Below, piece by piece: positions 33,073-53,019 of a stretch of 64,000 bases of DNA; within the stretch, counting starts at the first letter, position 1, and each line of letters opens with the position of its first letter. A model generated the notes under the pieces. It did no database searches and was not told where the DNA came from. It worked only from the letters and a program-made list of their open reading frames with translations. Source of the stretch: Bordetella genomosp. 2 (GTDB lineage: Bacteria > Pseudomonadota > Gammaproteobacteria > Burkholderiales > Burkholderiaceae_B); NCBI RefSeq assembly GCF_002261345.1, contig NZ_NEVT01000003.1, positions 1,116,001-1,180,000 on the forward strand. The letters are read 5' to 3'. Position numbers and translations under genes: made by a program.

Positions 33073-33621
33073 TCAATCATCCCACCGCTGGGCATTGCGC
33101 GTTTCCAGCCACGCGCGGGTATCGTGCCGCAGCGCTTTCAGGCATTGCGCCAGGAAGTTGTGCACGGTTTCCAGTTGGGTGGTGTCGAAGTTGCGCGCCA
33201 GCAGGGTGACTTCGCGGGCGATGGCTTGCCGTTCGGCCAGTAGCGGCCTGCACCGTTCCTGGACCGGCCGGATCACGATGACCCGGCGGTCCAGCGGATG
33301 CCGGCCGCGCGCGATGTAGCCGGCTGCTTCCAGCCGGTTGATCAGCGCCGTGGCGCCGCCGGGGCTGATGCCCATCAATTGCGCCAGTTGACCGGTGGGC
33401 AACGACTCGAACTCCAGTACCAGGTCCAGCGCCTTGAGGTCGGCCAACGCCATGTCCATCCTCTCCGCCAGCGCGGCCTGGCAGGCCGCGGTGTAGGCGG
33501 CGAATTGCCGCCCCAGCATCAATGCGATGTCGTCGATCATGTCGGGCCGTGTCTCGTCGCTTTCCGAAACCGGTACGGAAGGACGGCGGAAGGGCGCCAC
33601 GGAATCCAGGTATTGCAGCAT
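33073..33621 (-). CDS. MarR-family transcriptional regulator
   Basis: 182 aa with a winged HTH: DLKALDLVLEFESLPTGQLA, then GISPGGATALINRLEAAGYI as the recognition region and HPLDRRVIVI as the wing. ATG 33621 has GGAG 9 nt upstream. It begins 30 bp after the stop of the repeat-rich lipoprotein gene on the same strand, so it is probably cotranscribed and could feed back on that cluster. Its ligand and targets are unknown. Confidence 0.85.
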   Translation of the reverse strand: MLQYLDSVAPFRRPSVPVSESDETRPDMIDDIALMLGRQFAAYTAACQAALAERMDMALADLKALDLVLEFESLPTGQLAQLMGISPGGATALINRLEAAGYIARGRHPLDRRVIVIRPVQERCRPLLAERQAIAREVTLLARNFDTTQLETVHNFLAQCLKALRHDTRAWLETRNAQRWDD

Positions 33622-33651: not shown

Positions 33652-35223
33652 TCACTTGGCGCCGCCGTTCAGGCCGCCCAGCAACCCCCCGACCAGGCCG
33701 CCCAGCAGGCCGCCGTTGCCGCCGCTGCCGCTGTTGTCGCCCAGCCCGCCCGTCAAGCCCCCGACCAGCCCCGTGACCGGCGCCAGCAGGCCGGCGCCAT
33801 TGGCGCCGCCGCCAGCGTCCGTGCCGCCTGCCAGCCCGCCCGTCAGGCCCGCCACCAGGCCGGTGACCGGGGCCAGCAGGCCGTTGTTGGCGCCGCCGTT
33901 GCCGCCGAGCCCGCCGGTCAGGCCACCCACCAGGCCGGTCACCGGGGCGAGCAGGCCGCCATTGCCGGCGCCGCCGCCCAGTCCGCCCGTCAGCCCGCCG
34001 ACCAGGCCAGTCACCGGGGCGAGCAGGCCGCCATTGTCGGCGCCGCCGCCCAGTCCGCCCGTCAGCCCGCCGACCAGACCGGTCACCGGGGCCAGCAGGC
34101 CGCCTTCGCCGCCCAGTCCGCCGGTCAAGGAGGCCACGGCGGCGGTGGTGTGATTCAGCGTGGCGCCCAGCGGGTTGGGGTTGCCCGGTCCATGCAGCAC
34201 GCCGCCCAGGCTGGCCACGGCATTGCCGAGGTTGTTCACCACGCCGTTCAACGGCGTGCCTCCGGGCAATTGCCCCTCGACGCCTGCCAACGTGCCGCCG
34301 ATGCTGGTCAGCAGGCCGGCCACGGGTGCGCCCAGGCCGGTGGCCGCGCCCACTTGCTGGGTCACGTCCGTCACCTTGCCGGCCACCGGGCTGACCACGT
34401 TGTCGAGGCTGGCGCCGACGCCGCCCAGGGCGGGGTTCAAGCCCAGCGGCAGCACGTTGTCCACGGTAGTGCCGACATTGGCCAGGGCCGGTTCCAGCAA
34501 CGGCTGGCCGTCGCCCAGGCTGCCGGTCAAGTTGCCGACCAGGCCCGTGACGGGATTGAGCAGCCCGCCTTCGCCCGCCAGCGCGCCGGTCAGCGCGCCC
34601 ACGGCGCTGGTGGCATTGCCCAGCACCGTGGTCAGCGGCTGGGGATTGTCGGGATTGGCGTTGAGCAGGCCTCCCACGCTGGCGACCGTGTCGCCCAGGC
34701 CGCTGACCAGCCCCCCGACGCCGGCGCCGAGCCCGCCGGGCAGGCCGGTGCCGGTGACGGTGTCGCCCAGGTTGCCGACCACTCCGCCTACCTGGGTAAG
34801 CACGCCGTCCACGGGCGCGCCCAGCCCGGTGGCGGCACCGACTTGCTGTGTCAGGCCGGTGACTGTGTCGACCACCGGGGCGAGGGTGGGATCGAGCGCC
34901 TCGCCGACGCCCGCCAGGGCCTTGCCCAGGTCGAGCGGCGCGACGTTGTCGACTGCCTGGCCGGTGTTGCCGAGCGTGGTCTCCAGCAGGCCGGGCGGCA
35001 GGGCGGCAGGCGTATCGCCCCCACCACCACCGCCGCCGCCATTGCCACCGCCATTGCCACCGCCATTGCCACCGCCGCCGATGCCCGGCGGGATGCCGGC
35101 GATCGCGTCATCGCCGCCACCGCCGCCGCCGCAGGCGGCCAATGCGGCTGACAGCGCAACGGCGAGGGCCGTGCGGGCCAGCAGATGCGGAACACGACGA
35201 AGGTCGGAAGTTGTTGCGGGCAT
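33652..35223 (-). CDS. Repeat-rich Gly/Leu/Val lipoprotein, function unknown
   Basis: 523 aa. A signal peptide ends in lipobox LAAC with Cys31, followed at once by a glycine run and a Gly/Asn linker (about 32-66). The middle has loosely repeated segments of the type GLGAPVDGVLTQVGGVVGNLG. The C-terminal third has five copies of LLAPVTGLVGGLTGGL separated by Gly/Asn/Ala linkers of varying length. This is not a strict Gly-X-Y collagen pattern, although such proteins are often called collagen-like. It may be a surface or matrix component. GAGGAG precedes the ATG. Expression is predicted from a sigma-54 promoter (35282-35299). Confidence 0.8.
   Translation of the reverse strand: MPATTSDLRRVPHLLARTALAVALSAALAACGGGGGGDDAIAGIPPGIGGGGNGGGNGGGNGGGGGGGGDTPAALPPGLLETTLGNTGQAVDNVAPLDLGKALAGVGEALDPTLAPVVDTVTGLTQQVGAATGLGAPVDGVLTQVGGVVGNLGDTVTGTGLPGGLGAGVGGLVSGLGDTVASVGGLLNANPDNPQPLTTVLGNATSAVGALTGALAGEGGLLNPVTGLVGNLTGSLGDGQPLLEPALANVGTTVDNVLPLGLNPALGGVGASLDNVVSPVAGKVTDVTQQVGAATGLGAPVAGLLTSIGGTLAGVEGQLPGGTPLNGVVNNLGNAVASLGGVLHGPGNPNPLGATLNHTTAAVASLTGGLGGEGGLLAPVTGLVGGLTGGLGGGADNGGLLAPVTGLVGGLTGGLGGGAGNGGLLAPVTGLVGGLTGGLGGNGGANNGLLAPVTGLVAGLTGGLAGGTDAGGGANGAGLLAPVTGLVGGLTGGLGDNSGSGGNGGLLGGLVGGLLGGLNGGAK
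33680..34110 (-). repeat. Coding tandem repeat in the lipoprotein gene
   Basis: Units of 72-90 bp encode LLAPVTGLVGGLTGGL plus a Gly-rich linker. Two consecutive units starting near 33949 and 34021 are exactly 72 bp apart and nearly identical in DNA, which suggests recent duplication and a potential for copy-number change by slippage or recombination. Confidence 0.85.
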
Positions 35224-35281
35224 GATTGCACTCCTCTTAGTGGTCTATTCGGCGTCACTTGCGCCGGAACTTCCCCTCTGG

Positions 35282-35299
35282 AGCACGAACCGTGCCAAA
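35282..35299 (-). promoter_or_regulatory. Sigma-54 (-24/-12) promoter for the lipoprotein gene
   Basis: The minus strand reads TTTGGCACGGTTCGTGCT. It matches TGGCACG-N4-TTGCW in all positions but one (GTGC for TTGC), with the invariant GG and GC at the required 12-bp spacing. The predicted start is near 35271, about 48 nt before the ATG at 35223. Confidence 0.75.
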
Positions 35300-35404
35300 T
35301 CTCGAAACCGCCGGAAAAATCCTGTTTCGATGGTCGGAAGAAATCAGGAAACCCTCATCGGATCAAGGGCTTGGCGGAAAAATCAGAATGTCGCTCAAAT
35401 TGGA

Positions 35405-35424
35405 ACATCCCGAATCTGGGATGT
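35405..35424. promoter_or_regulatory. Candidate enhancer-binding site upstream of the sigma-54 promoter
   Basis: ACATCCCGAATCTGGGATGT is a perfect 7-bp dyad with a 6-bp spacer centred about 144 bp upstream of the predicted transcription start. That is the usual place for binding by a sigma-54 activator. Confidence 0.5.
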
Positions 35425-35481
35425 CGGCAATCCTGCGAACGTTACGATTTCGTGGCCAAGTCACGTTACATCGGGGGCGAT

Positions 35482-35491
35482 GTTACGTAAC
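35482..35491. promoter_or_regulatory. Palindrome GTTACGTAAC with flanking CGTTAC copies
   Basis: GTTACGTAAC lies between the TpsB stop and the dyad at 35405. CGTTAC occurs again near 35442 and 35465, and similar ACGTAATA/TAACG words recur in the AT-rich region at 37.3-37.6 kb. A shared regulator site is possible. The rest of the 299-bp gap (35224-35522) shows no gene. Confidence 0.3.
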
Positions 35492-35522: not shown

Positions 35523-37238
35523 TCAGAAAGCGTCGTAGAAGAGTGAATAGTTGGCGTTGAACCGCAGGTCGCGATCGCCGTCGTCGACGCGGCGGGCGCC
35601 CACCGGCTTGGCCATGTTGACGTCGAACAGGTAGTACTTGTCGTCGGTGAAGCGCAGGCCCAGCCCCACCGAGGACAGGTGGCCGGGGTTGTTCTCCTGG
35701 ATGGCGCGGTTGTTGTACCAGGTGCGCGCATAGTCCACCACGGCATAGGGCTGTACGCTGTTCAGGTGCTTCCATCCCACGCCGAAGCGGCGATTGATCT
35801 CGGCCGACAGGCCCACCCCCTTGTCGCCGCTTTTCTCGCCTTGGGGGTAGCCCAGCGCATAGCGCCAGCTGCCGTACGACACTTGCTCCGAACTGGGCAG
35901 CACGTCGTCGCTATATTGCGCCGCGCCGCGCAGCACCACCCCGAGCTGGCCGGGCAGCGTGAAAGTCTGCTTCAGGTCGAGGTTGTAGCGGGTGAAATTC
36001 AGGTCCACCTGGGCAACGCCGCTGTAGCCATAGTTGGTATCGACGGTCTTGTCGGCGCCCAGGCTGTTGAATCCCTGCGATATCCCCAGGCCCACTTCGG
36101 TCGAGCGGGTCGGCAGGAGATCGCGATAGCGCAGTTCCACGGTCGCGGCCCGCACGTCGACATCCTGCTGCAGCCAGTAATCGGTGCCGCGCAGCATATA
36201 GCGGTCGGTCGCATCCACTGCGTACATGCCGGCCGAGGCAGTCAGCGAACGGCGGTTGTTCAGCAGCAGCGGATAGCTCAGCCCGAGCGCCACGCGGTTG
36301 TTGGTGACTTCGCGATCGTAGCCCAGCCGCTCGACCGCGTCGTCCTGCGGCCGCGACCGGTAGTGGTGCCCCCGGGCGTACAGGGCCAGCCCGTCCGGGC
36401 CCAGCGGCACCGTGGCTTCGAGCGCGATGTAGCGCACGTCGTCGCTGTTGAGCGGCACGCTGCTGGTCAGCTTCACCTGTTCGCCCAGCGGCGTGAGACT
36501 GTTGCCCGCCACATTCACCAGGGGCTGCATGCCGGTGCCCAGGTCCACCAGGCCGCCGTTGGCCGTGAGCGGGCGCCGGGTGGCCGCCAGCACCAGTTCG
36601 GTGGCGCCGTCGGCGCGCCGCGGCAGTTCCAGGCTGGGCTGGAATCGCACGCCCGGCACGGCGCGCATCAGGTTGAGTACGCGTTCGAGCGTGGCCTGCG
36701 TGAGCGGCCGTTCTTGCAGCAGCGGCGCGGCCAGGTCCTGCAGGCGGTCGCGCGCATTGCCGATATCGCCGTCGATGCGCACGTTGCCGACATAGCCCTC
36801 GACTACGGTGACCGTCACCAGTCCGCCGGCGAACGACTGGTTTTGCAGCAGGGCGAATGACAGGGGGTAGCCGCGCGCGCGGTACAGCGCGGTGATCTTG
36901 TCCACCTCCTGCACCAGCGCGCCAACCGTGGTTTCCTTGCCTGCCAGCGGCGCGAGCAGGTTCGAGATGTCATCGAAGGGCAGGGCGCGCACCCCGGACA
37001 CATCGAAGCTGCGCGGCACCAGGCGCTGCGCCAGCCGAGCCTGCACGGCGCGCTGTTCCGGCGTGGGGACTTGCAGGGCGGGCTGCGGCTGGGGGGCGCC
37101 GCTGGCGGCGGGCGTCTGGATGTGGGGCAGCGCGTCGACCGGATTGCCGCGCAATGGGCCTTCGCCATGCGCCGTGCCGGCCGCCAGGGCGAGCAGGAAA
37201 GGGGAGGCCAGAACGCCTGTGCGCGAGGAAACAATCAT
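35523..37238 (-). CDS. TpsB-like (ShlB/FhaC/HecB) outer-membrane transporter without TpsA partner
   Basis: 571 aa. A signal peptide ends near TAHGEG; then a proline-rich stretch, two POTRA-like regions (about 75-240, including VTVVEGYVGNVRIDGDIG and RVLNLMRAVPGV) and a 16-strand-type barrel ending in Phe. The segment YALGYPQGEKSGDKGVGLSAEI aligns with the loop-6 motif VRGY/VRAYP...GEASGDxG, but the arginine position is Leu. In FhaC that arginine is needed for secretion. No TpsA gene lies in the window; the nearest downstream gene encodes the repeat lipoprotein. It is not FhaC itself: the N-terminus differs. Confidence 0.8.
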   Translation of the reverse strand: MIVSSRTGVLASPFLLALAAGTAHGEGPLRGNPVDALPHIQTPAASGAPQPQPALQVPTPEQRAVQARLAQRLVPRSFDVSGVRALPFDDISNLLAPLAGKETTVGALVQEVDKITALYRARGYPLSFALLQNQSFAGGLVTVTVVEGYVGNVRIDGDIGNARDRLQDLAAPLLQERPLTQATLERVLNLMRAVPGVRFQPSLELPRRADGATELVLAATRRPLTANGGLVDLGTGMQPLVNVAGNSLTPLGEQVKLTSSVPLNSDDVRYIALEATVPLGPDGLALYARGHHYRSRPQDDAVERLGYDREVTNNRVALGLSYPLLLNNRRSLTASAGMYAVDATDRYMLRGTDYWLQQDVDVRAATVELRYRDLLPTRSTEVGLGISQGFNSLGADKTVDTNYGYSGVAQVDLNFTRYNLDLKQTFTLPGQLGVVLRGAAQYSDDVLPSSEQVSYGSWRYALGYPQGEKSGDKGVGLSAEINRRFGVGWKHLNSVQPYAVVDYARTWYNNRAIQENNPGHLSSVGLGLRFTDDKYYLFDVNMAKPVGARRVDDGDRDLRFNANYSLFYDAF

Positions 37239-37683
37239 GGGCCGCAGTCCACGGGGGACAAGACGGCGGCCGCAGGGGAAGGCGAGCCGCCAAGTTGAAA
37301 CAAAAAACTAATATCTATTCTTAATGTTGCCACAACGCATCAGTTATGCCGAGTGCAACGTAATAAAAAAACACAAAGTTGAATATTTGTGTAGTCTATA
37401 AGGGCAATACTTGCCAGTATGTAACGAATATTCGGCATTTTGTTGTTTGTTTTGGGGCTTATCTGGACTTATTGTGCAGATAAGTTAGTATAGTTGGAAA
37501 TATAAACATAAATTACGTAATAACCCTGATGTTGTTCTCCAGTTATTAGTTGAAACTATCTTGAACGTTATGCAACTTAAAGAGTTGCGATTCGTTGCTC
37601 ATATTTCATTGTGAAACCAGACGCATGCCCCTCTCGTTGGTCTCGCCGCTGAGCGCGGGGCCTGTTGTCGATCGGAAGCTTTC
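37239..37683. promoter_or_regulatory. AT-rich 445-bp divergent regulatory region
   Basis: No gene is visible. The stretch 37300-37620 is markedly AT-rich against a very GC-rich background. It contains dyads CTTATCT-N13-AGATAAG (37458-37484), GCAACT-N5-AGTTGC (37572-37588) and TTTCA-TTG-TGAAA (37604-37616), plus several ACGTAATA/TAACG words. It separates the divergent tpsB-like and MHYT genes, so it should carry both promoters. Such AT-rich stretches are typical targets of H-NS-like proteins. Confidence 0.6.
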
Positions 37684-38514
37684 ATGACTCCTGGCGAAGT
37701 CGTTCCCCTGTCATTCAGCGCGGGCCTGGTCGTCTTGTCGTTCCTGACCGCGGCATATGGCGCCTATGTCGCGCTGCGCGCGGCCGCGCAGATCCGCGCC
37801 GCCGCGGCCGACGGCGTGTCCTGGCTGCCCAGTGTCGGCATTGCCGCCGTATCGATGGGCGGCATCGGCATCTGGAGCATGCATTTCATCGGCATGCAGG
37901 CGCAGGCCATGCCGTTCGAGGCGGGCTACCAGGTATGGCTGACGCTGCTGAGCTTCCTGTTGGCCGTGGCGTGTTCCGGCCTGGCGCTCTGGTATGTCGC
38001 CCGCGGCCGCTTCTCGGCGGCGCGCTGCCTGGCGGGCGGCATCATCGCCGGCCTCGGCATTGCCGCCATGCACTACGTGGGCATTGCCGCCATGCGCATG
38101 CCCGCCCTGTTCCTGTGGAGCCTGCCGCTGATCGTGCTGTCGGTGCTGATAGCGGTGGCGGCGGCCACCGCCGCGCTGTGGCTGGCCTTCAATGTGCAGA
38201 CCGCCTGGCAGCGGGTGCTGGCTGCGGTGGTGATGGCCGCGGCGGTCTGCGGCATGCATTACACGGCCGCGGCGGCCGGCGTGATGGTGTGCACCGCGCC
38301 GCGCGAATCCGGCGGCCTGCAGATCGGCGGCGCGGCGCTGCCCTATGTGGTGTTCGCGCTGTCGATCGTCGCGCTGGCGCTGTTGCGCTGGCAGCTGCAC
38401 CGCTCGTCCCTGCGTTTTCGCCAGCAGCTGGCGCGGCGCGTGGACGCGCTGATTGGGTCCGGTGCCGCGGCGGCGGCGGGCGATGCGTCCGCCGGCCTGC
38501 CGCGGCGCGGGTAG
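37684..38514 (+). CDS. Stand-alone MHYT-domain integral membrane protein
   Basis: 276 aa with about seven predicted transmembrane helices. The three MHYT-type motifs are SMHFIGM, AMHYVGI and GMHYTAA, each placed as the family requires for metal or gas sensing. No GGDEF, EAL, kinase or HTH output domain follows: the tail is short and basic. Such stand-alone forms are thought to sense and pass signals by unknown partners. It lies just upstream of the tad locus, on the same strand, 95 bp before flp. Confidence 0.85.
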   Translation: MTPGEVVPLSFSAGLVVLSFLTAAYGAYVALRAAAQIRAAAADGVSWLPSVGIAAVSMGGIGIWSMHFIGMQAQAMPFEAGYQVWLTLLSFLLAVACSGLALWYVARGRFSAARCLAGGIIAGLGIAAMHYVGIAAMRMPALFLWSLPLIVLSVLIAVAAATAALWLAFNVQTAWQRVLAAVVMAAAVCGMHYTAAAAGVMVCTAPRESGGLQIGGAALPYVVFALSIVALALLRWQLHRSSLRFRQQLARRVDALIGSGAAAAAGDASAGLPRRG

Positions 38515-38516
38515 AG

Positions 38517-38535
38517 ATCCCGGCAGTGCCGGGAT
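38517..38535. promoter_or_regulatory. Perfect palindrome ATCCCGGCAGTGCCGGGAT
   Basis: Nine-base arms around one central G begin 3 bp after the MHYT stop and end 73 bp before the flp ATG. No T-run follows, so it is either a weak terminator or an operator for the pilus operon. Half-sites ATCCC/GGGAT also occur in the dyad at 35405-35424, but with a different spacing. Confidence 0.45.
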
Positions 38536-38608
38536 GGTGAGGGGCGGCGCCGCATGGGATGGCGCCGGCCGGGTAGTCGTGAAGGCTTGCGTAGGCCTGG
38601 AGAACAAA

Positions 38609-38794
38609 ATGAAAGAGCAATTGATGCGGTTCTGGAAGGATGAGGAGGGCGTGACGGCCCTGGAATATGCGATCGTCGCGGCGGTGCTGGTGGTGGCCGT
38701 CGGCGCGGCGATCTGGGCGCTGGGAGACGATCTCAAGGCCTTCTTCGAAGGTATCGGCACCAAACTGGATGACGCCGCCACCAAGCCGAAGTAA
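38609..38794 (+). CDS. flp: Flp-family type IVb pilin
   Basis: 61 aa, the size of Flp pilins. The prepilin site is EEG14|VTALEY with Glu at +5 and Tyr at +6, the Flp signature; then a hydrophobic helix AIVAAVLVVAVGAAIWAL and a short polar tail. ATG has GGAG 7 nt upstream. It is the structural subunit of the adhesive Tad pilus, cleaved by the A24 peptidase encoded next. It is the first gene of the tad cluster. A 95-bp leader has a 19-bp palindrome but no recognisable promoter. Confidence 0.92.
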   Translation: MKEQLMRFWKDEEGVTALEYAIVAAVLVVAVGAAIWALGDDLKAFFEGIGTKLDDAATKPK

Positions 38795-38891
38795 TGGTCG
38801 GGGCGTGGGCAAATGTGTCGCGGCGGCGGTGCCGGCCGGCTCCGGTAAGGACGGTCCGGCTCTGCACCGTTGCGCGGGATGCGCGTGAAGC

Positions 38892-39401
38892 ATGGAACTG
38901 TCCGCAGGGGTAGCGTTGTGGTGGCTGCTATTCACGTCCTGGAACCTGGCGCTGGCCCATGGCGACCTGCGCCGCCGCAAGGTGCCCAACAGGCTCGTCG
39001 TGAGCGGACTTTGCGGCGTGCTGCTGTGGGCGGGCGCCGCTGCCTGCGTCGCCGGCTGGCGCTATCCGCCGCTGTGGCCTGGCTGGCCGGCTGCCGCGGG
39101 CGGCTTCCTGATGGCGGTGCCATTCTTCCTGCTCTGGCAGCGTCGCTGGATGGGGGCGGGCGATGTCAAGGCCATCGCCATCCTCGGGCTGGCGATGGGC
39201 CCGGCGCGCCTGGTGCTGGCGCTGGCGCTCGCCAGCCTGGTGGCCGGCGCGCACGCGCTGCTGTATCTGGCCGCGGCGCGCCGCCGGAGGCCGCCGGCCC
39301 GGCTGCGCCAAGTGCCCTACGCCGCCTATATGGCCCTGGGCGCACTCAGCGCGGTGTTTATTCCCTTGAGTTCGGCCTGGTGTTTCTGGTGTTTTTCATG
39401 A
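38892..39401 (+). CDS. A24 prepilin peptidase, TadV/CpaA-like
   Basis: 169-aa polytopic membrane aspartyl protease that processes Flp and the TadE-like pseudopilins. The two catalytic Asp are Asp25 (HGDLRRRKVPN) and Asp91 (GAGDVKAIA), and the GxGD motif is intact. The last 20 residues (ALSAVFIPLSSAWCFWCFS) are encoded by DNA that in another frame encodes the conserved N-terminus of the downstream TadE-like protein, so this tail may be recent. No second peptidase is in the window. Confidence 0.88.
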   Translation: MELSAGVALWWLLFTSWNLALAHGDLRRRKVPNRLVVSGLCGVLLWAGAAACVAGWRYPPLWPGWPAAAGGFLMAVPFFLLWQRRWMGAGDVKAIAILGLAMGPARLVLALALASLVAGAHALLYLAAARRRRPPARLRQVPYAAYMALGALSAVFIPLSSAWCFWCFS

Positions 39402-39826
39402 TCCTGTACGCGATCATCACCTACGGCCTGGTATTCACCGCCCAGCAATCGCTCAACCTGGCGGCGCAGGATGGCGCGCGCAAGGCGCTGCAATGGCAGA
39501 CGGGCGAGGCGCACATGCTGGCACGCGCCAATGCGGCGCGCGATGCGGCGCTGGACCGCGCCGGCTGGATCGCCGCCATGTCGGCCGCGCCCCTGCGGGT
39601 CGCGGTATGCGGCAGCGCCGGCGCGTTGAGCGCCGCCGGCGGCGGCGCGTGCGGGGGCGCCGTGCTGGCGGCGGACCAGCTCGAAGTGCGCATTTCCTAT
39701 GCCTATGCGAACCACCCCCTGGTTCCCGCGCTGCCGTGGATCGGCGCGGCCATGGTGCCGGACGAACTGAGCGCCCGCGCCACCGTGCGGCTGGGGCTGT
39801 TGCAGAGCGCGGGGAGCGCCACATGA
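39398..39826 (+). CDS. tadE: TadE-like minor pseudopilin, start uncertain
   Basis: The conserved region RGVYSLEFGLVFLVFF, with prepilin-type Gly and Glu, is read in this frame from about 39350, inside the peptidase gene. Upstream in that frame there is no ATG, GTG or TTG until about 38.9 kb. The first usable start is the ATG at 39398, overlapping the peptidase stop as ATGA, but it cuts the conserved N-terminal helix in half. Either a non-standard start or a lesion has occurred. The rest (to residue 142) resembles TadE: AQQSLNLAAQDGARKAL, then a Cys pair and a hydrophilic C-terminus. Confidence 0.6.
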   Translation: MILYAIITYGLVFTAQQSLNLAAQDGARKALQWQTGEAHMLARANAARDAALDRAGWIAAMSAAPLRVAVCGSAGALSAAGGGACGGAVLAADQLEVRISYAYANHPLVPALPWIGAAMVPDELSARATVRLGLLQSAGSAT

Positions 39827-40317
39827 ATATCCGGCGCATCGTGCCCGCCGCGACGCGCGGCCGCCAGGGCGGCGTGGCCGCCATCGAATTCGCGCTGGTG
39901 GTGACCTTGATGCTGTTGTTGCTGCTGGCCGTCGTCGGCTACGGGGCGTTGTTCTGGACCCAGCAGCAATTGTCGGCCGCCGCCGGCGAGGGCGCGCGCG
40001 CCGGCATGCTGGCGCGCTACGCGGGGCGCGCCGACGTGCAGGGCGCCGCGTGCGACGCCGCCCTGGATGTGTTCGGTCCGGCCACCCGGGTGGCCTGCAA
40101 CCGCGCGGCGGGACCGGCGGCCTGCGCCTGGACGGGCGCGGGCGGCGCCGCGGTGGGCTGCGTCGATGTGGTGCTGCGCTACGACATGGCGCAGTGGCCA
40201 TTGCTGCGGTCCTTCCACGGCCTGCTCGACCTGGCGACCGGCGGGGCGGCCGACGGGCTGGTGCCCGTCACGCTGACCGCCCGCGCCGTCATTCAAATTA
40301 CACAGGAGCCGCTATGA
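39823..40317 (+). CDS. TadE/TadF-family pseudopilin
   Basis: 164 aa. A short basic leader is followed by RGRQGGVAAIEFALVVTLML, a prepilin-type site (GG|VAAIEF, Glu at +5) and one hydrophobic helix, then a periplasmic domain with several Cys (AACDAAL, VACNRAAGPAACAW, VGCVDVV). The ATG overlaps the TadE stop. It probably forms a minor pseudopilin with the other TadE protein and should be cut by the A24 peptidase. Confidence 0.8.
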   Translation: MNIRRIVPAATRGRQGGVAAIEFALVVTLMLLLLLAVVGYGALFWTQQQLSAAAGEGARAGMLARYAGRADVQGAACDAALDVFGPATRVACNRAAGPAACAWTGAGGAAVGCVDVVLRYDMAQWPLLRSFHGLLDLATGGAADGLVPVTLTARAVIQITQEPL

Positions 40318-50783: not shown

Positions 50784-50837
50784 ATGAACATGCAGAATTC
50801 CCGCTGGCCGGACGCGGAGGGCGCGAGCCATGCGTAG
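50784..50837 (+). CDS. Possible 17-codon leader ORF before the sigma-54 regulator
   Basis: ATG 50784, one base after the tadG stop, opens 17 codons ([17 protein letters not shown]) whose stop overlaps the start of the regulator gene by a few bases. It could couple translation of the regulator to tadG, or be chance. No ribosome site is evident. Confidence 0.2.
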
Positions 50838-52227
50838 CAAGCCCATCCGCGACGATTTCGACCTTTATGTATGGGAAGGCGCGTCCGACATCGCCGCGCG
50901 CGCCGAGCGCTGCCTGGCGGGCATGGACGTCACCGTGGTGCGCGCCGACGCCGCCACGGCCTTCCCGCCGCCGCGCGACATGGCGCGCGCCGCGATCGCC
51001 CTGGTGTCGGTATCGGTCATGGGCGACAAGCGCTTCAGCGGCTACGACTGGCTGGCCGCGCAGGGCATGCCGGTGATCTGGGTGGCGGCCGAGCCGCGCG
51101 GCAACGATCCGCGCTTCTATCCGCCGGCGTATTCGTACATCCTGCCGCCGGCCTTCACCACGGCCGAGCTGCGCCGGCAACTGGTCGAGCTGCTGGGGGC
51201 GCTGGACGGCGCGGACCGTCGGGCGGCGCGCCACGAGCAGCCGTTCGTGGCCGTATCGGAGCCGATGCGCGCCTTGCTGGCCGAAGCCCGCATGTTCGCC
51301 GATTGCCGCAGCAATGTGCTGATCCATGGCCAGACCGGCGTGGGCAAGGAGCGCGTGGCGCGCCTGCTGCACGAGTGCGCCGCCTGGGCCGACGGGCCGT
51401 TCGTGGCGGTCAATTGCGGCGCCATTCCCGAGGGATTGTTCGAGGCGCATTTCTTTGGCCATGCCAAGGGCGCCTTCACCGGCGCGGTCGGCGCGCACAA
51501 GGGCTACTTCGAGCAGGCCGACGGCGGCACGCTGTTCCTCGACGAGATCGGTGACCTGCCGCTGTACCAGCAGGTCAAGCTGCTGCGCGTGCTGGAGCAG
51601 AACGCGGTGACCCGGCTGGGCTCCACGGTCGAGGTGCCGGTCGACTTCCGCCTGGTGGCGGCCACCAACAAAGACCTGCGCGCGCTGTGCGCGCAGGACG
51701 AATTCCGCTCCGACCTCTACTACCGGCTGGCGGTCATCGAGCTGTACATCCCCAGCCTGCAGGAACGCGGCTCCGAGGAAAAGATCGCCATCTTCCGCGC
51801 GCTGCTGGAGCGGCACGGCCTGGGCGCGGACGACCCGCCGCCCGGCTGGCTGCTGGAGCGGGTGGCCTGCACGGTGTATCCCGGCAACGTGCGCGAGCTG
51901 GCCAACGTGGTCGAGCGCGTGGCGATCGTGCGCCGCCAGCTCCAGGGATGGGACCGGCCGCGCATCGAGCAAGTATTCGACCGGTTGGGTGCTGGTGCGG
52001 TCCTCGCCGCCGCGCCGCCGGCCAGCGGCATGGCCGACACCTGGTCCGACGCCGAGCGCGCCGAACGCAACCGCATCCTGGCGGCGCTCGAGGCGCACGG
52101 CTGGCGGCGCCAGGACACGGCGCAGCACTTGGGCATCAGCCGCAAGGTGCTGTGGGAAAAGATGCGCAAGCTGCGGCTGGGCAGCAACCAGGGCGAGCCG
52201 GCCGAGGGGCTGGCGGAGCCGTTCTAG
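50830..52227 (+). CDS. Sigma-54-dependent enhancer-binding regulator with degenerate receiver-like domain
   Basis: 465 aa. Residues 1-125 look receiver-like but lack the phosphorylatable acidic pocket. The AAA+ domain has Walker A GQTGVGKE (167-174), GAFTGA (214-219), Walker B LFLDEIGD (235-242) and a switch-type segment [11 protein letters not shown]. The C-terminus is a Fis-type HTH ([20 protein letters not shown]). GAFTGA is intact, so it should contact sigma-54. A strong GGAGGG precedes the ATG. It likely regulates tad genes; VpsR-like members with such domains bind c-di-GMP, which here is only speculation. Confidence 0.9.
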
Positions 52228-52305: not shown

Positions 52306-53019
52306 ATGAAAGTCCATCATCTTCATCGCGCCGCGCGCCTGGCGGTGCTGGGCACGGCGCTATCGGGCCTGGCGGCCTGCGCCAGCGCACAACAGCCGGA
52401 AGCCGCCCGTCCGCCCGTGCAACAGGTGGAGAGCCGGCAGGCCGGCGATACGCCGGTGACGCCGCCGGCGCCGGCGGCCAAGCCGAATTCCACCATCGCC
52501 GAATTGCAGGCCCTGATCCAGAACCGGCAGGTGTCGGAGCTGCGCACCACCTACAACGGCACCTACGGCGCGAGCCTGTTGTTCAAGCCCGACGACCTCA
52601 CGTATTACGCCGCCTTGTTCCAGCAGAAAGACTTCTGGCGCGTGGTGCAGACCAAATCGGACAAACAGGCCGAGGCGACCTATCGCGCCTTCGCCGAACA
52701 GTCGGCCGAACTGGCGGAGGTCGACATCAGGCGCATCAAGCTGCAGGCCGAATACGCGCATTCCGAGCGCCTGCTGGCCGAACGCAGCAACGAACTGGCC
52801 ACCCTGCAGGCCGACCAGTCGCTGCGGCGCCAGCAGGAACAACAAGTGGCCGCCCGCCAGGAACAGGCGCGCCAGCAGGCCGCGGCCCTGGCCCAGCAAC
52901 AGCAGCAGATGCGCGCCGAACTGCAATCGATGCAGCGTCAGATCGACGCGCTGCAGGCGCAGCAGGCCGAACTCGAGCGCGGCGAGGCCGCGGCCCGCCG
53001 CAAGGGCGCCGGCAAATAG
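52306..53019 (+). CDS. DUF2968 lipoprotein
   Basis: 237 aa. Lipobox LAAC (Cys25), a proline-rich linker, then the DUF2968 domain (IAELQALIQNRQVSELRTTYNG ... LTYYAALFQQKDFWRVV) and a long glutamine-rich coiled coil (residues about 140-230, ending EAAARRKGAGK). DUF2968 is known mainly from Burkholderiales; function unknown. It is on the plus strand after the tad locus, but has its own promoter-like patch, so it is probably a separate unit. Confidence 0.85.
   Translation: MKVHHLHRAARLAVLGTALSGLAACASAQQPEAARPPVQQVESRQAGDTPVTPPAPAAKPNSTIAELQALIQNRQVSELRTTYNGTYGASLLFKPDDLTYYAALFQQKDFWRVVQTKSDKQAEATYRAFAEQSAELAEVDIRRIKLQAEYAHSERLLAERSNELATLQADQSLRRQQEQQVAARQEQARQQAAALAQQQQQMRAELQSMQRQIDALQAQQAELERGEAAARRKGAGK

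Follow-up and report, generated by a model that had tools for sequence, protein, structure and literature searches.

What switches on a collagen-type lipoprotein gene that shares its cluster with tad (Flp pilus) genes in Bordetella, and from which promoter? The window analysed here is a 64,000-nt stretch of Bordetella genomosp. 2 (GCF_002261345.1, NZ_NEVT01000003.1, positions 1,116,001-1,180,000, forward strand). An earlier note had placed a sigma-54 promoter before this gene and had taken a dyad further upstream as the activator site; that observation was partly confirmed, the promoter holding up and the dyad as an activator site failing. From sequence comparison, we consider it quite likely that 35271-35491 constitutes the complete sigma-54-dependent control region of the lipoprotein, activated through an enhancer-binding protein (EBP), an array of GTTAC/GTAAC half-sites and IHF. 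The genes concerned are as follows.

33652..35223, minus strand: Collagen_mid (PF15984) lipoprotein, 523 aa, the predicted regulated gene (ORF with a lipobox-like LAAC and a Pfam match)
35523..37238, minus strand: TpsB-like outer-membrane transporter of the ShlB/FhaC type, 571 aa, bordering the regulatory region on its upstream side (POTRA_2 and ShlB Pfam matches; conserved neighbour)
33073..33621, minus strand: MarR-family regulator, a rival candidate regulator (Pfam match; 30 bp downstream of the lipoprotein gene)
50830..52227, plus strand: sigma-54 EBP of the tad locus, GtrR-like, 465 aa, the predicted activator (intact GAFTGA, Fis-type HTH)
52306..53019, plus strand: DUF2968 protein, at the far edge of the conserved cluster (Pfam match)

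The lipoprotein ORF starts with the ATG at 35223. Its product matches PF15984 at 71.3 bits against a Pfam cut-off of 31.1 (E 1.3e-19) and, by eye, carries a signal peptide with a lipobox (ALAAALAAC) and a glycine-rich stretch C-terminal of it. A PDB profile search with the lipoprotein domain returned four weak matches (E 0.033 or worse), which were taken as chance. The gap to the TpsB-like gene, also on the minus strand, is 299 bp; the transporter may aid transport of the lipoprotein to the cell surface. A ShlB/FhaC-type transporter adjoins the lipoprotein gene in the relatives' clusters examined. Between TpsB and the tad genes lies an MHYT-domain membrane protein (37684-38514 in the window), present in 9 of 12 clusters and 30 of 31 loci.

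A probable sigma-54 promoter conserved before the lipoprotein gene

35282..35299, minus strand: probable sigma-54 -24/-12 promoter TTTGGCACGGTTCGTGCT, with GG at 35296-35295, GC at 35284-35283 and a predicted +1 at about 35271

The element fits the -24/-12 consensus except at one position, as the earlier note had stated; we found a single mismatch to TGGCACGNNNNTTGCW, with GG and GC spaced 10 bp apart within TGGCACGNNNNTTGC. Scored with a generic sigma-54 matrix, TTTGGCACGGTTCGTGCT is the top position of the 64-kb window (18.0, the next reaching 14.6). rpoN is present in the genome together with a GAFTGA-bearing activator. Two rpoN-type matches were observed there (G000, C2:100269-100736 and C5:178595-179062).

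Motif count alone was dropped as a basis for judging the promoter: the bare motif TGGCACGNNNNNTGCW has 9 sites in the 5.02-Mb genome, below the 14 of a reversed control, so that a bare match is no proof of a promoter. This count favours reading the -24/-12 motif as a chance match, its conservation stemming from close kinship or another constraint. We regard that reading as extremely improbable, since the motif is kept in diverged genera and in other families while much of the flanking sequence is not, and since it is also present in second copies of the lipoprotein gene.

Thirty-one named Bordetella and Achromobacter loci were chosen through their TpsB neighbour. Downstream of TpsB, 27 of them carry a -24/-12 element that departs from the consensus at two positions or fewer; in L029, L041, L045 and L050 a weaker version occupies this place. 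The whole cluster was also taken from 24 more genomes in the window's family, a set that may share organisms with the named loci. In all 24 clusters the lipoprotein gene stands behind TpsB (judged by eye in L145, where the contig ends within the gene), preceded in each case by a promoter-like element. When 35,768-40,170 positions per cluster were ranked with the matrix, this element took first place in 19 of the 25 clusters, the window's among them, while in five it ranked second and in one third; in G054, the site outranking the first promoter is the promoter of a second lipoprotein copy. Second lipoprotein genes lie beyond the MarR gene in G073 and G054 (L168, L173), genomes of two genera, and each has its own GTTACGTAAC array and -24/-12 element.

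Pooling was then possible over 60 upstream regions of the window's order: those of the 25 clusters and of the two second copies, 29 from the 30 best loci of the family of G383, and four others. A -24/-12 element and, upstream of it, at least two GTTAC/GTAAC half-sites lying within 60 bp were found in 57 of the 60. Dinucleotide shuffles predict the promoter in 0.56 regions, the half-sites in 3.17 and the two together in 0.03; the promoter threshold of 12.7 behind this count was chosen after an earlier scan and equals that scan's lowest positive. The 30 loci from the family of G383 (L217-L246) were picked as top matches in the highest-scoring of 74 genomes and are not a random sample; one of them, L242, for which no start was found, was omitted from the pool. 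The promoter is missing in L241, L243 and L204. L241 and L243 represent a Collagen_mid paralogue type without array and without promoter. L204, in genome G385, has TpsB, tad and EBP nearby, yet no promoter, which counts against the favoured reading.

G273, from another family, has two Collagen_mid genes (L202 and L207), both with a -24/-12 element and half-sites. The 40-kb surroundings of L202 gave no tad, TpsB or EBP match, and the other gene has all three; as L202 keeps half-sites and promoter apart from the cluster, the control region also occurs outside it. A search of 150 genomes of the order turned up Collagen_mid, besides the window's genome, in four (three above the cut-off); family members can be overlooked in such a search, since the profile detects the window's own protein weakly. 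The domain is present in 74 of 150 genomes of the family of G383. Among 274 genomes of the class, the strong Collagen_mid match outside the order, in G718, has no such promoter.

Because the element is conserved at the same place in several genera, far beyond chance, we conclude that the sigma-54 promoter before the lipoprotein gene is very probably real, and the earlier note's claim to that effect is strongly supported.

The candidate enhancer and the dyad

35433..35491, minus strand: GTTAC/GTAAC half-site array, candidate enhancer (conserved upstream sequence; GTTACGTAAC at 35482-35491, GTAAC at 35465-35469, variant GTGAC at 35460-35464, CGTAACGTTCGCAG at 35433-35446)
35405..35424, minus strand: dyad ACATCCCAGATTCGGGATGT (ACATCCC-N6-GGGATGT), probably not the conserved activator site

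The dyad exists as described, and the distance of 144 bp to the predicted start that had been given for it is borne out for its centre (about 144 bp from ~35271). Its proposed role as activator site is unsupported: the conserved element at enhancer distance is the GTTAC/GTAAC array, which begins 9 bp upstream of the dyad and occupies the interval 147-193 bp upstream of the -24 element. This array is the most conserved upstream sequence, lies at a normal distance for an enhancer and is our candidate enhancer.

The dyad could still be the main activator site if it were a genus-specific substitute for the array. We judge this very unlikely. Its palindrome is recognisable at the same place (-134 to -153) in four of the six relatives of the genus, but it is degraded in L144 and L157 while promoter and array are kept, and no counterpart of the same kind was seen by eye in other genera. 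Taken alone, it is at chance level: a 7+7 dyad arises in 13.6% of 2000 shuffles of the 299-bp intergenic region, and 304 perfect dyads of this size, their arms 0-10 nt apart, were counted in the window. At chance level in shuffles and kept imperfectly in the window's genus only, the dyad was dropped as an enhancer; it is probably not a conserved activator element. At the dyad's place, some loci of Achromobacter carry another kind of stretch, resembling CCCAA..TTGG.

The array was then considered genome by genome. The array's 12-bp palindrome, with at most one mismatch, has one place in the window's genome, the reversed control giving 18 on each strand. Of 268 genomes of the family, 48 have the two-site array pattern, each at a single place (doubled rows being overlapping readings of one place), against 5 matches for the reversed control. 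The exact 10-mer GTTACGTAAC stands at the lipoprotein cluster in 12 of 18 genomes (at both copies in G054 and G073), only outside the cluster in G215, G107 and G102, and nowhere in G188, G083 and G089; its places outside the cluster number 0-2 per genome. Absent from the cluster in six of the 18, the exact palindrome was dropped as a widespread site; variant arrays stand at the cluster in all six. Most relatives have a less degenerate array than the window, whose second pair is GTAAC/GTGAC and whose spacing is wider, and half-site distances differ among loci (commonest 5, 12, 24, 17, 29 and 19 bp). Both observations, like the gaps in the exact palindrome's distribution, count against the favoured reading.

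IHF-like site and 5' UTR

35361..35373, plus strand: IHF-like site GATCAAGGGCTTG (consensus matched at 8 of its 9 fixed positions; -24 element 75 bp further downstream)
35224..35271, minus strand: predicted 5' UTR, 48 nt, with a short hairpin at 35251-35265 plus flanks (helix kept in most aligned relatives)

An IHF-like score of 8 or 9 out of 9 was reached in 20 of 25 regions, against 3.3 expected from shuffles that preserve base composition only. For 19 of the 25, the best match is separated from the -24 element downstream by 74-78 bp.

The window's own version of the predicted 5' UTR hairpin is weak (z -0.21). Over 16 sequences (15 of the 24 relatives and one from L031), 89.6% of cells are paired, where shuffles reach 85.5% and slid versions 18.5-51.0%; the count is biased in the hairpin's favour because L154 and L155, which look unlike the others, are among those excluded (L144, L145, L151, L154, L155, L156, L157, L158 and L163). 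Covariation is modest, with some compensatory changes among relatives.

The enhancer-binding protein and its co-occurrence with the lipoprotein

The EBP that the earlier note had assigned to the tad locus is indeed encoded there, at 50830-52227, with its GAFTGA intact. GAFTGA is present in 31 of 32 EBP sequences (window included), the exception being GSFTGA in G383, which counts against the favoured reading. The 13-residue recognition helix is likewise identical in 31 of the 32 (L154 has A for V), and it is the same in PDB 7vbs. Just beyond the EBP gene of G080, at L159 ~366-383, a full sigma-54 consensus is directed back toward the EBP.

In 42 genomes, EBP orthologues were counted when full-length and at least 59% identical; by this measure the 28 genomes with an EBP are also the 28 with TpsB, the two genes lying on one contig in 26 and split over contigs in G097 and G082. 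Partial EBP matches past 1e-60 in G025 and G109 (43-44% identity, no TpsB) were not counted as orthologues. G081 (L142) gave no match to the EBP and just a fragment of TpsB, a picture that resembles a decaying cluster. Among the 150 genomes of the family of G383, 74 have both Collagen_mid and EBP, two have EBP only (G418 and G527), none has Collagen_mid only and 74 have neither (Fisher 3e-41, a value that is merely indicative since related genomes are non-independent). For the 62 of these 74 genomes listed, the two genes lie on one contig in 53, 12.5-16.3 kb apart, and on different contigs in nine; the distance count is biased toward closeness, because where there were several lipoprotein genes the one on the EBP's contig, if any, was chosen.

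Co-occurrence, linkage and the intact GAFTGA suggest that the tad-locus EBP likely works the lipoprotein promoter. The co-occurrence and linkage would also fit an EBP acting on other tad genes.

The sigma-54 promoter could also be genuine and the array be bound by another factor, for instance the downstream MarR, as repressor or co-activator, with the EBP binding elsewhere or another EBP acting. In the window's family, all 12 clusters checked keep the MarR gene as a neighbour, the window's genome holds five other strong EBP matches, and GTTACGTAAC is a palindrome without spacer, an unusual site for Fis-type dimers. Against this, tblastn of the 40 kb around the lipoprotein genes gave no MarR match in G383, G273 or G385, but did locate the EBP in G383, in G385 and at one of the two G273 places; G383 and both G273 places carry array-like half-sites and a promoter. 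MarR may be encoded elsewhere in those genomes, but with no match in these surroundings it is the weaker candidate and the less likely array-binding factor, and we consider this alternative as a whole unlikely.

Comparison with known systems

The window's EBP matches PDB 7vbs over residues 1-457 (E 1.3e-147), and its N-terminal 137 aa alone give E 2.8e-27; the homology thus includes the N-terminal domain. Published gtrR primers encode MRNTPA at the start and TRESE-stop at the end, and the length of GtrR is 463 aa. MRNTPAI stands at the start of the aligned part of 7vbs. Since the chain start agrees with the primer and the length with GtrR, 7vbs is probably GtrR (BCAL1536) of Burkholderia cenocepacia, and the window's EBP is probably a relative of it.

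The portions of the Burkholderia literature covered here describe a comparable locus. The flp cluster of B. cenocepacia consists of the putative operons BCAL1524-1520 and BCAL1525-1537 (PMC2753556); BCAL1523/1524 are annotated as Collagen Middle lipoproteins and BCAL1522 as an outer-membrane protein of TpsB size (PMC10224339). BCAL1523/1524 are induced together with flp genes upon contact with host-derived membranes (PMC7970998), and BCAL1524 promotes autoaggregation (PMC10303873). GtrR is reported to act with RpfR on cepI and quorum-sensing functions (PMC12838280); within the literature searched, itself partial, no link to collagen-like genes was found. Control of berA by BerB and RpoN in B. 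cenocepacia also combines an EBP with RpoN, at a site ctatTGGCACGTAAATCGCTtatt, and has a biofilm function; as far as the covered part of that paper goes, it differs from the window's system in EBP, target and locus, and c-di-GMP is its reported signal (PMC5552954). The same paper cites an RpoN regulon study of strain H111.

The earlier note's remark that such lipoproteins are not usually known as sigma-54 targets agrees with the partial body of literature searched, which contained no sigma-54 promoter on collagen-like lipoprotein genes; an earlier report is possible. No literature on sigma-54 with tad/Flp pili was found. By title, RpoN combined with collagen-like and Burkholderia brought up only a Legionella biofilm review, and a word search for 'collagen' in PMC5979394 and PMC5491218 gave nothing.

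A textbook sigma-54 promoter of the NtrC type has a -24/-12 element, an upstream enhancer and an IHF site between them. The window's region resembles it in having a -24/-12 element, an upstream candidate enhancer and an IHF-like site between. It differs in its half-sites, which form a GTTAC/GTAAC array with variable spacing where the NtrC type has a single 17-bp dyad.

Proposed mechanism and implications

The computed support for a complete control region at 35271-35491 comprises the conserved promoter, the array, the IHF-like site, linkage and co-occurrence; from these we infer that the EBP binds the array, that IHF binds its site and that RpoN is required. RNA polymerase with RpoN would sit in a closed complex at 35282-35299, and oligomers of the GtrR-like EBP, encoded at the end of the tad cluster, would bind the array at 35433-35491. 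IHF would bend the DNA around 35361-35373 so that the GAFTGA loops of the EBP could contact the polymerase, and ATP hydrolysis would then open the promoter. Expression of the lipoprotein, and perhaps also of the MarR gene behind it, would in this way be coupled to expression of the tad cluster.

A broader proposal concerns the Burkholderiales as a whole, where the GtrR family may have been dedicated ancestrally to GTTAC/GTAAC arrays and to sigma-54 activation of collagen-type lipoproteins, its role in quorum sensing being a later addition. The adhesin would then be made only once the tad operon that carries its activator is expressed. We hold this tentatively, at somewhat less than an even chance.

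For a conserved, little-understood adhesin system, the proposal for the window's region names a target together with its candidate regulator and binding site, and would tie collagen-like lipoproteins to the sigma-54 activator of the neighbouring pilus cluster.
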